Source: Sphingomonas parva (ex Maeng et al. 2020) (GTDB lineage: Bacteria; Pseudomonadota; Alphaproteobacteria; Sphingomonadales; Sphingomonadaceae). Taken from it: a stretch of DNA of 64,000 nt. Position 1 is the stretch's first letter, and each line of letters starts with the position of its first letter. Both the position numbers and the translations under genes were made by a program. The notes below the pieces were generated by a model, which worked only from the letters and a program-made list of their open reading frames with translations, ran no database searches and was not told the DNA's origin. Positions 6,702 through 51,683 of the stretch are shown here, piece by piece. Location of the stretch: the NCBI RefSeq assembly GCF_004564275.1, contig NZ_SPDV01000019.1, positions 1 to 64,000 on the forward strand, read 5' to 3'.

Positions 6702-9296
6702 TCACAGATCCGGCAGCACTTGCGACGTCTCGCCCCAGCCCTCCAGGGCGCGGCTCGAGACGCGTTCGAGCAGGAGAGCGGAATCGCGCACGGTGAAGCG
6801 GGCGCCGCTCTCCATCTCGTCGAGCTCGTCCCAGCTGATTGGCGCAGAGACCGGCGCGCCTTCGCGGGCGCGGCTCGAATAGGGCATGATCGCGGTCGCG
6901 CCGCGCTGGTTGCGCAGATAGTCGAGGAACATCCGGCCCTTGCGCTTGGCCTTGGCGAGATTGGCGGTGAAGCGCTCCGGCTCCGCCGTGGCGAGGGCGA
7001 CGCAGAAGCGCTGGGCGAAATCCTTGACCTCCGGCCACTCGGCCTCGGGGGTGAGCGGCACGACGACGTGGAGCCCCTTGCCGCCGGTCAGCAGCGGGAA
7101 GCTGACCAGCCCCATGTCGGCCAGATAGCGGTGGAGATCGCGCGCCGCGCGCCTGGTTTCGGCGAAATCGAGCCCCTCGTCCGGATCGATGTCGAAGATC
7201 AGCCGGTCCGGCTTCTCGACGTCGGCGACCGACGAGCCCCAGCCGTGGAACTCGATCGTGCCCATCTGAACGCAGGCGATCAGCCCGGCGACATCCTCGA
7301 CATAGACGTAATCCTCGATCTCGCCCTTTTTCTCCTCGATCTCGATCTGGTGGACCTGCGGCCCGAAGCTGCCGGTATTGTGCTTCTGGAAGAAGCATTT
7401 CTTGCCGCGCCCCTGGGGGCAGCGCACCAGGCTCAGCGGCCGGTTCGCGGACCAGACCGCCATCAGCGGGCCGACGACTCGATAATAATCGACCAGTTCC
7501 TGCTTGGTGACGCCGGAATCGGGAAAGATGACCCGCTCGGGATTGGTGATCCTGATGCCGTCGTCGCGCGGCGCCGGCAGGGGCTGGGGCAGCTCGCGCA
7601 CCACCTCCTCGGCCGCCTTGTCGGCGCGCAGGCCGAGGAAGCTCGGGTGGCGGACGACGCCTTCCGAGGTGAATTCGGTGAAGGCGACCTCGGCGACCAT
7701 CTCCGGCCGCACCCAGTGCGCGCCGCGGGCGTCGGGCCGCGGCACCGCGGTGGGTGGCGTCTTCACCTCGATCCGCCGCATCCGCTTCAGCAGGTCCTGG
7801 ATCGTCGCCATCGAGAAGCCGGTGCCCACCTTGCCGACGTAGCGCAGCGACCCGCCCTCGTTGACGGCGAGCAGCAGGGAGCGGAAACCGCGCGCCTTCG
7901 CCTCGCTGGGAGTCCAGCCGATGATGACGAACTCCTGGCGCTGGATGCACTTCACCTTCAGCCAGCATCTGGTGCGGGTCGAGCGATAGGGCGCCTCGGC
8001 GCGCTTGGAGATGATCCCCTCCTGGGCCGCCTCGCACATCGCCTGGAAAAGCTCCTCGCCATGGCCGACGATATGCTCGGCGTAGAGGAGGGTGGGGGGC
8101 TTGCCCTCGCCGACGAGCGCGGCGAGCCGCGCCTTGCGCTCGATGTTCGGCAGCCTGGTCAGATCCTCGCCGTCGATCTCGAGTGCGTCGAACAGGAACA
8201 GGGTGAGGCCGCGGCCGCCCTCGCCGATCGCCTGCTGCAGCGCCGAGAAATTGCTCGAGCCCTTGTCGTCGAGGCTGACGATCTCGCCGTCGAGCAGCGC
8301 CGAGCCGACCTCCAGCGACGCCGCGGTCTCGACGATCTCGGGGAATTTGTCCGACCAGTCGAGGCCGGAGCGCGTGTAGACTTTCGCTCTGCCGCCGCCG
8401 ATCGCCAGCAGGCAGCGATAGCCGTCGTACTTCATCTCGTGGATCCAGCCGGACCCGGGCGGCACGTGATCGGCGAGCGTCGCCTTCTGCGGCTCGCGGA
8501 AGGCGGGTAATCCTCCCCGAGCTTTGCTCGGGGAGGGGGACCGCGCCGCGGAGCGGCGTGGTGGAGGGGCTGGCACGGAGTCATTGCCAGCCCCTCCACC
8601 GCTCGCCTTCGGCGATCGGTCCCCCTCCCCGAGGCGAGCTCGGGGAGGATCTTTCTTGCTCGGCTTCAGCCCGTCCACCCAGCTCTTCAGCTCCTTGCGC
8701 GTCCGGCCCGCGGCGATCTCGCCCATCGTGCGGCCGGTCTTGATGCTGGTGAGATATTGCTCGACGAGGCCCATCGAGCCGCCGGCATGCTCGTCGGTGA
8801 CCTTCTTCAGGATCCAGTTCTCGGCGCGGTCGCGGGGGCGGCCCTTCAGGCGGAACATGACCCACTCGCCCTTCATCCGCTCGCCGTCGAGGGTGAAGTG
8901 GAGATGGCCTTCCTCCAGCGTCTTGCGCGGGTCCTTGCCGGGATGGGGGAGCCAGATGCCGCGGTCCCACAGCATCACCGTGCCGCCGCCATATTCGCCC
9001 TTGGGGATGGTGCCCTCGAAGGTCGCGTAGGAGAGGGGGTGATCCTCGGTGCGCACCGCCAGCCTCTTGTCGGCGGGGTTGAGGCTCGGACCGTTCGGCA
9101 CCGCCCAGCTCTTCAGCACGCCGTCGAGCTCGAGCCGGAAATCCCAGTGGAGTCGGGTGGCGTCGTGCTTCTGGACCATGAAGCCGTGCCCCTCGCCCCA
9201 GGAGAGAGAGTCGAAACTGCCCTTCGGCTCCGCCGTCTTCGAGAAATCCCGCTTGCGATTATAGGTCTCGAGCGGGTCGGCGGGTTTGACAGCCAC
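6702..9296 (-). CDS. ligD: ATP-dependent DNA ligase D (LigD), PE-LIG-POL
   Basis: 864 residues, the usual size for a three-module LigD. Residues about 15-175 form the 3'-phosphoesterase domain (KHDATRLHWDFRLE and GTIPKGEYGGG). The ligase domain begins near 265 with the adenylated Lys in EMKYDGYR (about 289). The C-terminal polymerase/primase domain (about 560-855) has the metal-binding Asp pair in IFDIDPDEG (about 700). With Ku it repairs double-strand breaks by non-homologous end joining. GTG start, with a GGGAGG site that lies in a small palindrome at 9302-9322. Odd: residues about 216-261, between PE and LIG, are a Pro/Arg/Gly/Ser-rich stretch encoded by an in-frame palindromic repeat (8511-8649). 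Confidence 0.95.
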   Translation of the reverse strand: MAVKPADPLETYNRKRDFSKTAEPKGSFDSLSWGEGHGFMVQKHDATRLHWDFRLELDGVLKSWAVPNGPSLNPADKRLAVRTEDHPLSYATFEGTIPKGEYGGGTVMLWDRGIWLPHPGKDPRKTLEEGHLHFTLDGERMKGEWVMFRLKGRPRDRAENWILKKVTDEHAGGSMGLVEQYLTSIKTGRTMGEIAAGRTRKELKSWVDGLKPSKKDPPRARLGEGDRSPKASGGGAGNDSVPAPPPRRSAARSPSPSKARGGLPAFREPQKATLADHVPPGSGWIHEMKYDGYRCLLAIGGGRAKVYTRSGLDWSDKFPEIVETAASLEVGSALLDGEIVSLDDKGSSNFSALQQAIGEGGRGLTLFLFDALEIDGEDLTRLPNIERKARLAALVGEGKPPTLLYAEHIVGHGEELFQAMCEAAQEGIISKRAEAPYRSTRTRCWLKVKCIQRQEFVIIGWTPSEAKARGFRSLLLAVNEGGSLRYVGKVGTGFSMATIQDLLKRMRRIEVKTPPTAVPRPDARGAHWVRPEMVAEVAFTEFTSEGVVRHPSFLGLRADKAAEEVVRELPQPLPAPRDDGIRITNPERVIFPDSGVTKQELVDYYRVVGPLMAVWSANRPLSLVRCPQGRGKKCFFQKHNTGSFGPQVHQIEIEEKKGEIEDYVYVEDVAGLIACVQMGTIEFHGWGSSVADVEKPDRLIFDIDPDEGLDFAETRRAARDLHRYLADMGLVSFPLLTGGKGLHVVVPLTPEAEWPEVKDFAQRFCVALATAEPERFTANLAKAKRKGRMFLDYLRNQRGATAIMPYSSRAREGAPVSAPISWDELDEMESGARFTVRDSALLLERVSSRALEGWGETSQVLPDL
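8511..8649. repeat. Three-armed palindromic repeat, copy 1 (inside ligD)
   Basis: About 139 bp bounded by outer arms TCCTCCCCGAGCT and AGCTCGGGGAGGA. It contains a left hairpin (CCTCCCCGAGC, TTT loop, GCTCGGGGAGG), a central hairpin whose 16-bp arms are exact complements (8560-8575 with 8585-8600), a right hairpin ending at 8649, and conserved joins GGGGGACCGC and CGGTCCCCCTCCCC. The whole would fold as a cloverleaf. The same architecture recurs at 51547-51683. The copy keeps the ligD frame open and lies in an inter-domain linker. No transposase is encoded, so movement would need a factor in trans. Confidence 0.88.
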
Positions 9297-28936: not shown

Positions 28937-29517
28937 CGGCAGGGAAGGCGCGGGTTGATTCGCCGCCGCTAACCCTCCCTTTTGATGGGGGAGGGAAGGG
29001 TGGGGGCGGCGTCAATGCAGGCCGGCGCGTCTCCGGAGACTCCACCCCTCCCCAACCCCTCCCCATCAAGGGGAGGGGCTTAGAGCCGATCTGGGCAGTG
29101 CTCGAGAGCGTACCCGATCCCGAGATCCCCGTGCTGTCGATCGTCGATCTCGGCATCGTCCGCGCGGTCGAGGCGGAGAGGGTGGTGCTGACGCCGACCT
29201 ACACCGGCTGTCCGGCGACCCAGGTCATCGAGCGCGACGTGCGGGCGGCGCTGGACGCGGCCGGCTATCGGCGCGTGCGGATCGAGACCGCGCTTTCCCC
29301 AGCCTGGACGACCGACTGGATCACGCCGGTAGGCCGCGCCAAGCTCCATGCCTATGGCATCGCGCCGCCGACCGCGCCGGGGCAAGGGACGCCGGAATGC
29401 CCGCGCTGCGGATCGGCCCACACCGACGAGATCAGCCGCTTCGGATCGACGCCGTGCAAGTCCCTGTGGCGCTGCCTCGACTGCGCCGAGCCGTTCGACC
29501 TGTTCAAATGCCACTGA
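28930..29517 (+). CDS. paaD: PaaD: Fe-S/maturation protein with repeat-encoded N-terminal insert
   Basis: 195 residues, about 30 longer than usual PaaD. From residue about 52 the canonical sequence runs: IWAVLESVPDPEIPVLSIVDLGIVR, the conserved TPTYTGCPATQVIE, and the zinc- or Fe-S-like end CPRCGSAHTDEISRFGSTPCK with a last CLDC. It is needed for maturation of the epoxidase in model systems. Residues about 15-50 are encoded by a palindromic repeat (28973-29079) that keeps the frame open. The ATG at 28930 overlaps paaC by 7 bp, and no later start fits, so the insert is probably translated. Confidence 0.9.
   Translation: MVAAGKARVDSPPLTLPFDGGGKGGGGVNAGRRVSGDSTPPQPLPIKGRGLEPIWAVLESVPDPEIPVLSIVDLGIVRAVEAERVVLTPTYTGCPATQVIERDVRAALDAAGYRRVRIETALSPAWTTDWITPVGRAKLHAYGIAPPTAPGQGTPECPRCGSAHTDEISRFGSTPCKSLWRCLDCAEPFDLFKCH
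28973..29079. repeat. Palindromic repeat inside the paaD 5' end
   Basis: Left hairpin CCCTCCC/GGGAGGG at 28973-28995 (loop TTTTGATGG), inner GGGTGGGGG answered by CCCCAACCC, and right hairpin CCCCTCCCC, ATCAA loop, GGGGAGGGG (29056-29078). It has the three-arm plan and CCTCCC/GGGAGG arms of the elements in ligD and at 51547 but a different core. Read in the paaD frame it gives a Pro/Gly-rich peptide containing STPPQPLPIKGRG, a peptide pattern I associate with such repeats in other genomes. Confidence 0.85.
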
Positions 29518-51546: not shown

Positions 51547-51683
51547 TCCTCCCCGAGCTCTGCTCGGGGAGGGGGACCGCGACGCGGAGCCTCGCGGCGG
51601 AGGGGCGGGGAGAGGATTCAGGACTGCCCCTCCACCACCGCCTGGCGGCGGCGGTCCCCCTCCCCCAGCAAGCTGGGGGAGGA
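51547..51683. repeat. Three-armed palindromic repeat, copy 2
   Basis: About 137 bp. Starts TCCTCCCCGAGCTCTGCTC, with only two differences from the ligD copy over the first 45 or so bases, including the shared GGGGGACCGC join. The central arm is GGAGGGGC answered by GCCCCTCC. After GCGGTCCCCCTCCC comes a right hairpin with arms CCTCCCCCAGC / GCTGGGGGAGG. It fills the gap between two converging genes and ends exactly next to the transporter's TAA (51684-51686), so it may serve as a bidirectional terminator. Confidence 0.9.

Follow-up and report, generated by a model that had tools for sequence, protein, structure and literature searches.

The title of a paper from 2002 reportedly presented palindromes read in frame within proteins as a unique feature of Rickettsia. 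The available part of PMC2229807 describes the Rickettsia palindromic elements (RPEs) as repeats of ~105–146 bp with a stem-loop and terminal inverted repeats, located between genes and also in frame within conserved genes, with fusions in 19 Rickettsia reading frames. The same text describes the CIRs of Caulobacter and Brucella, two-armed palindromes of alphaproteobacteria (~110 bp), which hold GANTC and stop codons in all frames and, as far as this part of the source goes, are not found in genes. REPs scattered over further genes were reported later in the accessible portion of PMC3733652, which covers two kinds of REPs, GTAG and CGTC, also found inside genes, many of them replication or repair genes and some in sphingomonads. 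According to that portion, the GTAG REPs (RAYT REPtrons) are short palindromes, often in inverted pairs and sometimes inside genes; the CGTC REPs, listed there as having no transposase, predominate in alphaproteobacteria, mostly as pairs, and comprise a single 8–9 bp stem with A/T pairs almost always first, a loop of 4–5 nt and an unpaired CGTC tag.

Here we describe a palindromic element read in frame within the ligD gene of Sphingomonas parva, identified in a stretch of 64,000 nucleotides (contig NZ_SPDV01000019.1, positions 1 to 64,000; hereafter the window) and listed with its parts in Table 1. We consider it quite probable that this element belongs, as one of many copies, to a dispersed and non-autonomous palindromic family of Sphingomonadaceae, termed R1, which is absorbed by some proteins as a linker. 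In the following, G000 denotes the own genome of the window, the remaining G numbers genomes of the genus, and L numbers individual loci.

Table 1. Coordinates of ligD, the palindromic element with its parts, and the sister element in the window
Feature	Position	Strand	Basis and remarks
ligD, ATP-dependent DNA ligase D, 864 aa, GTG start	6702..9296	-	ORF list and Pfam; hosts the insert
Palindromic element, 139 bp, two inverted R1 half-units and spacer, in frame in ligD	8511..8649		
R1 half-unit, left, 79.4 bits	8511..8569	+	Covariance model; itself among the 23 sequences used to build it
R1 half-unit, right, 71.6 bits	8591..8649	-	Covariance model; also among the model's own sequences
Outer arm, pairing with 8636-8650, extended by 8527-8543 with 8617-8633	8510..8524		DNA fold
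Side hairpin 1	8544..8558		DNA fold
Central 17-bp stem, 8559-8575 with 8585-8601, 9-nt loop	8559..8601		DNA fold
Side hairpin 2	8603..8615		DNA fold
Sister element, intergenic	51547..51683		Half-units 51547-51605 (+) and 51627-51683 (-)

The element in ligD and its repeat family

The LigD protein, whose closest named relatives are from Sphingomonas, contains the Pfam domains LigD_N (aa 42–149) and DNA_ligase_A_M (aa 281–449) as well as DNA_ligase_A_C and LigD_Prim-Pol. The insert corresponds to residues ~216–262, behind LigD_N and ahead of DNA_ligase_A_M, and contributes ~46 residues with the reading frame intact. In the AlphaFold2 model (20 sequences) residues 197–259 have pLDDT values under 50 and lack any secondary structure, within a model that is poor throughout (mean pLDDT 66.6, the phosphoesterase domain being weak too); judged from this model, the segment is likely a disordered linker. 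At the DNA level, the nearest LigDs in the comparison are about 85% identical to that of the window. The own genome contains further LigD-like sequences at G000:C42 and G000:C97 (57% and 45% identical over the polymerase part).

The arms of the element (8510–8575 and 8585–8650) are 66 nt each, 82% complementary, and separated by 9 nt. Folding of the segment 8505–8655 as single-stranded DNA gives –76.7 kcal/mol (z –12.55), a stability equalled by 0 of 200 shuffled sequences, and the sister copy at 51547–51683 folds with a z of –5.91 into a shape less regular than that of the ligD copy. A sequence-only reading of the window had proposed an in-frame element of about 46 residues between the PE and ligase modules, which is borne out by the 864-aa ORF and its Pfam flanks. 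Its architecture (outer arms, a pair of side hairpins, a central stem) also stands, with 17 bp in the folded stem instead of 16, and its sister copy at 51547 is a genuine copy of the repeat, located in intergenic rather than coding DNA.

The unit of R1 is a half-element, in which hairpin A, set in TCCTCCCC..GGGGAGG, is followed by GGGACC, hairpin B and GGTGGAGGGG. Among 23 half-units, 93.6% of the pair cells exhibit standard pairing, a figure biased in favour of the structure since the latter was drawn from the same sequences. The hairpins covary: 41 cells are changed on both sides, compared with 13.7 in shuffles (0 of 500 shuffles reach the observed value), and the signal is abolished when the pairing partner is shifted in these half-units. 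The covariance model built on them yielded at least 131 matches in the own genome, at least 120 of them non-overlapping, 13 of the 120 on one tandem contig; the DNA search with the 139 bp yielded 62 matches there, with both strands of the palindrome counted. The further copies expected by the sequence-only reading thus exist in at least 120 separate places. Counting the own genome each time, matches were found in at least 25 of 26 genomes of the genus (E 0.001; 1 to at least 150 per genome), in at least 20 of 39 genomes of the family (E 1e-6) and in at least 5 of 190 genomes of a class-wide sample.

Of 119 own half-units, 72 belong to ends-out inverted pairs (the 119 being the 131 matches minus 12 at E 9.9e-4), and neighbours within 200 bp comprise 36 ends-out, 3 opposite and 12 same-strand arrangements. 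Paired elements (n = 28) span 115–166 bp (median 126.5), a range bounded by the search pattern. A tandem array of at least 10.2 identical 169-bp units, each with R1 half-units, starts at the edge of own contig 103 (L276:1-1719) and occupies nearly half of its 3744 bp. The window also contains a weak match at 29045–29077 (23.7 bits, E 0.0012), and at L012:1300-1554 the right half of an R1 element appears, by eye, to be broken by another palindromic segment.

Five equally scoring half-units (L011–L015) were considered as ends of an insertion sequence and rejected, their flanks being unlike each other except in an internal duplication of contig 8. Comparison of the element with Rfam gave 46 matches up to E 10, none of them at gathering score; the top ones were models of plant microRNA hairpins, which we regard as artefacts of hairpin structure. 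The literature searched (open-access main texts) contained no description of R1, no match to its encoded peptide motifs and no combination of Sphingomonas with RAYT and REP; the sole match to the two 13-mers of the R1 scaffold was a paper on the pig glucocorticoid receptor. Papers on repetitive extragenic palindromic sequences and Sphingomonas were not relevant by title, and among those listed for LigD and palindromes most dealt with CRISPR.

All six frames are open in 45 of 56 half-units and in 8 of 28 whole elements, and the latter have 4.9 open frames on average versus 3.8 in first-order Markov resamples. Since the GC-rich half-units seldom contain stop codons, a suitably placed copy would be able to survive in a gene. 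We propose that each R1 unit comprises a pair of inverted half-units, in each of which two short hairpins vary compensatorily on a fixed G-rich scaffold, and that a single strand can thereby fold into a three-armed cloverleaf. A copy of fitting length that comes to lie in an exposed loop or an inter-domain linker would stay as a Pro/Arg/Gly/Ser-rich, probably disordered peptide, and copies elsewhere in genes would be purged by selection. Tolerance rather than benefit would explain the sites in which R1 is found.

Occupancy of the LigD linker among relatives

Of the 24 LigDs of the genus, the own one included, 12 have R1 (E 0.01) in their linker, with both halves in nine (G000, G001, G002, G004, G005, G007, G014, G016, G018) and one half in three (G009, G019, G023). 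The comparison of orthologues for presence and absence, called for by the sequence-only reading, thus revealed a linker that is not common to all. Among 76 named LigD loci, mostly from Sphingomonadaceae (the scan covered 76 of 80, leaving out L149–L152), both halves are present in L073, L075, L079 and L093 and a single weak half in L086. A CGTC-type palindrome (up to 3 mismatches) occupies the linker in G015, G021, G022 and G025 and in the further loci L077, L081, L089 and L111; at this threshold the pattern occurs in 8 of 91 linkers versus 2 of 3640 synonymous resamples, and at up to 6 mismatches in 143 of 3640 resamples. Linkers of G010 and G020 contain other, degenerate palindromes (by eye), and neither R1 nor the CGTC type was seen in those of G003, G008, G011, G012, G013 and G024. 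Different palindromes are found at this one protein site in sister species: R1 in G002 versus the CGTC type in G025, R1 in L079 versus the CGTC type in L089, and R1 in G016 versus another palindrome in G010.

On a LigD tree inferred with the linker removed (quick method, no bootstrap, 62 of 104 rows, some outer rows picked by hand), four linker states require no fewer than 18 changes, against a mean of 24.9 in shuffles, and 10 of the 18 fall inside the genus; these changes do not separate gain from loss. R1 versus not-R1 requires 12 changes, compared with a shuffled mean of 14.3, and 40 of 500 shuffles are as low. Such a nearly shuffled scatter fits many changes, but also noise in labelling. 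L076, L078 and L092 were scored as CGTC type at 5–6 mismatches on account of the palindromic character of their linkers (z –3.1 to –5.8), whereas L035, at 6 mismatches, was scored as empty (z +2.0).

How much of this pattern is old? The LigD linker could be inherited vertically from one ancestral insertion in the genus, later eroded, lost or overwritten, with the repeat no longer active at this site. We regard this as a serious possibility, though not the favoured one. All nine two-sided inserts of the genus are in one reading frame (by eye), and G000, G001 and G007 have the insert in common, with diverged spacers. For the downstream halves, the best match is the LigD of another species in 8 of 8 cases and not a genomic copy, compared to 1 of 7 for the upstream halves (the test covered 8 of the 12 R1-bearing LigDs of the genus, without G009, G016, G019 and G023, in an unbalanced comparison set of 126 half-units, to which G000 contributed 50). 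The genus pattern may therefore largely reflect one old insertion. Since the downstream half is coding, constraint could mimic descent, and from these matches it seems to be either inherited or constrained as protein. Against a single ancestral insertion stand the sister species with R1 versus the CGTC type, another palindrome or nothing at the LigD site, the Sphingomonas LigDs L075, L079 and L093, in which R1 is read in other frames, and the presence of R1 at other genes in other species. As a whole, these similarities suggest that the LigD insert within the genus seems to be partly inherited, and our claim does not extend to a new insertion for every species. At ligD, the relatives compared yielded no clean empty site that would show exact boundaries, and the exact insertion boundaries sought by the sequence-only reading could not be fixed from orthologues. 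The aligned span of the LigDs of G001 and G007 (L025, L042) is longer between the R1 halves, with 125 and 151 residues versus 115.

Putative mobility and further host proteins

Outside ligD, the copy at 51547 is missing from the orthologous site in G001, G007, G009 and G015, where the matched flanks lie 22–46 bp apart; the right flank is on another contig in G014 and was not found in G018. The mobile three-armed repeat inserting into coding DNA that the sequence-only reading had envisaged is upheld in that R1 is dispersed, covarying and in frame in several genes. The mobility part is favoured by the 51547 copy missing from four relatives and weakened by the ligD insert, which seems partly inherited, and we infer movement from these comparisons. 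At the ends of 28 paired elements no regular target duplication is found (identical flanks of 3 or 4 bp in 0 of 28, of 5 bp in 1 of 28). The elements are preceded by A-rich bases and followed by T and then C/T (27 of 28 at the second base), so the true ends may extend two bases further out. Complementarity of the bases just outside the ends (13 of 28 versus 10.3 expected) is not convincing.

Movement would probably occur in trans, through an enzyme that is not linked to R1 and acts on its folded strand. A RAYT of the HUH/Y1 type would be our first guess for this enzyme, a guess held with limited confidence and not a result. The corresponding alternative, in which R1 is moved by a Y1 tyrosine transposase whose gene lies in another part of the genome, is likewise a tentative one of some weight. 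Y1 transposase matches were found in 11 of 26 genomes of the genus; the own genome has five Y1_Tnp matches, including two pairs on contigs 47 and 102 with identical spacing, and one of its Y1 proteins scores 76.5 bits against REP_Tyr_transpos, for which the cut-off is 80. The lack of a regular target duplication agrees with such an enzyme. R1 is more numerous in the 11 genomes with Y1 than in the 15 without it (Mann-Whitney p 0.006), a comparison that ignores kinship and uses lower-bound counts, and R1 number correlates with genome size too (rho 0.39, p 0.046). On the other side, R1 is absent from all 19 Y1 loci of the genus (0/19 within flanks of up to 1.5 kb where the contig allowed), so that the linkage of a RAYT-type gene to a copy, which the sequence-only reading had suggested looking for, did not materialize; the GTAG tag is not conserved in R1, and R1-rich genomes are found among those with no detected Y1 gene (G009, at least 150; G011, at least 83).

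In the further host proteins, R1 lies in frame between CSD2 and RNB in the RNase R of G000, and a half-unit, the only R1 match listed for G025, is in frame in its GlyS beta. An ORF of G023 with Pfam matches to IMS (Y-family polymerase) and DUF6504, which we take to be ImuB-like, has two insert-like segments with a less clear GC3 pattern; this case fails the GC3 filter, and its assignment is based on the two Pfam matches in its frame. Across the LigD, RNase R, GlyS and ImuB-like sites R1 is read in all three frames. Long ORFs over R1 (at least 60 aa on both sides in 36 of 62 distinct copies) were discarded as evidence of coding, many of them being spurious; by the GC3 test no more than 3 of the 62 sampled copies look coding on both sides, which makes the intragenic ones a minority.

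The most striking result is the presence of different palindromes at the same protein sites, with repeat types assigned by eye in RNase R and GlyS and type names coined here. Site 1 of RNase R (22 of 26 genomes compared, without G006, G016, G019 and G020) is short in 14 genomes, contains R1 in G000, G007 and G010, other palindromes in G003, G014 and G025, and is slightly enlarged by extra segments in G008 and G024. Site 2 contains R1 in G005, G009 and G014, and another palindrome in G015 and G025. In one loop of GlyS (compared without DNA of G006, G017, G019 and G024) R1 is found in G003, G014, G015 and G023, a second palindrome type in G004 and G011, and a third in G002, G009, G020, G021 and G025. 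This loop is short in G005, G010, G016, G018 and G022, longer in G008, and replaced by a different-looking region in G000, G001, G007 and G012; G013 gave no GlyS match in the comparison of genus genomes. Since the same spots hold other repeats or none in relatives, some proteins seem to absorb palindromic repeats as flexible linkers.

Two side observations concern these loops. At RNase R site 1 (L204, L205, L208) the inserts of G000 and G007 have a similar start of the spacer, and G001, the sister of G007 on the LigD tree, is yet short at this site, which may reflect loss or exchange. The third GlyS type (CCCTCTCCCC..GGGGAGAGGG; L234, L235, L244) has, by eye, a two-hairpin, inverted-pair layout like that of R1, and from this resemblance may be a distant relative of it.

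Could unrelated palindromes be delivered to such places by a shared directed process, with the LigD linker, the two RNase R loops and the GlyS loop as landing pads? We consider this unlikely. If true, landing pads (e.g. transcribed or lagging-strand spots prone to hairpins) would turn the in-frame capture of repeats into a standing route by which proteins evolve in this lineage. Selection for the insert, by which an mRNA hairpin or a basic Pro-rich peptide would tune LigD (for example via ribosome pausing between domains or DNA binding), is quite improbable in our view. The host genes act in repair or in RNA metabolism and translation (LigD, ImuB-like, RNase R, GlyS), which recalls the gene survey in the available part of PMC3733652, and occupancy of the LigD linker has changed repeatedly; these genes were, however, drawn from a small sample of loci, and the unrelated repeats, three frames and empty states at the same sites are better explained by tolerance than by one function.

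When synonymous codons are resampled according to the usage of ligD itself, the palindrome of the window's LigD linker stands at z –4.04, a DNA palindrome beyond the demand of the protein. The linker was measurable in 90 of 104 LigD loci, and z is –3 or lower in 6 of 22 genus linkers and 9 of 68 others; the test is strong for the window's linker and not for most orthologues. That a low-complexity linker of a GC-rich gene merely looks palindromic can be practically dismissed: many relatives' LigD linkers are indeed basic and of low complexity, but z is –12.55 against shuffles and –4.04 against synonymous resampling, and the intergenic copy at 51547 has the same structure.

Comparison with described palindromic repeats

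The dispersed family R1 differs from each of the described systems in some respect. Unlike the CIRs, it contains GANTC in only 2 of 28 elements, is intragenic at times and has mostly open frames, and unlike MITEs it lacks a regular target-site duplication (see above for the counts at 3, 4 and 5 bp). With the GTAG REPs, as portrayed in the available part of their description, it shares short palindromes, frequent inverted pairs and occasional location in genes, but it has no conserved GTAG tag (9 of 28 elements contain GTAG or CTAC at any position) and no linked Y1 within the loci compared. The CGTC REPs resemble R1 in occurring as pairs and also inside genes, and a CGTC-type repeat takes up the LigD linker of sister species; in R1, each half-unit contains a pair of hairpins and starts with TCCTCCCC, and CGTC or GACG occurs anywhere in 12 of 28 elements, not at the ends (which are fixed by the search pattern as TCCTCCCC).

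The closest parallel is found in the RPEs. Like them, R1 is inserted in frame in genes of conserved proteins (LigD, RNase R and GlyS beta, with the ImuB-like case being weaker) and is a palindrome with terminal inverted repeats, with 115–166 bp in some cases above the 105–146 bp given in the available part of the RPE description. It differs from RPEs in its sphingomonad host, in a half-unit with two hairpins, and in sites within LigD, RNase R and GlyS that are common to other palindromes. The likeness to RPEs in concept, with a different sequence, that the sequence-only reading had proposed is upheld for the behaviour (in-frame insertion), and R1 is different-looking as judged by description. 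By this analogy of behaviour, drawn from published descriptions, we would say that R1 works like an RPE but is a different-looking family.

R1 is an abundant repeat family. Its sites in the LigD linker and in the loops of two further enzymes are empty, filled or differently filled by species within one genus, a comparative series for asking whether palindromic inserts are merely tolerated or alter the function of the enzyme.
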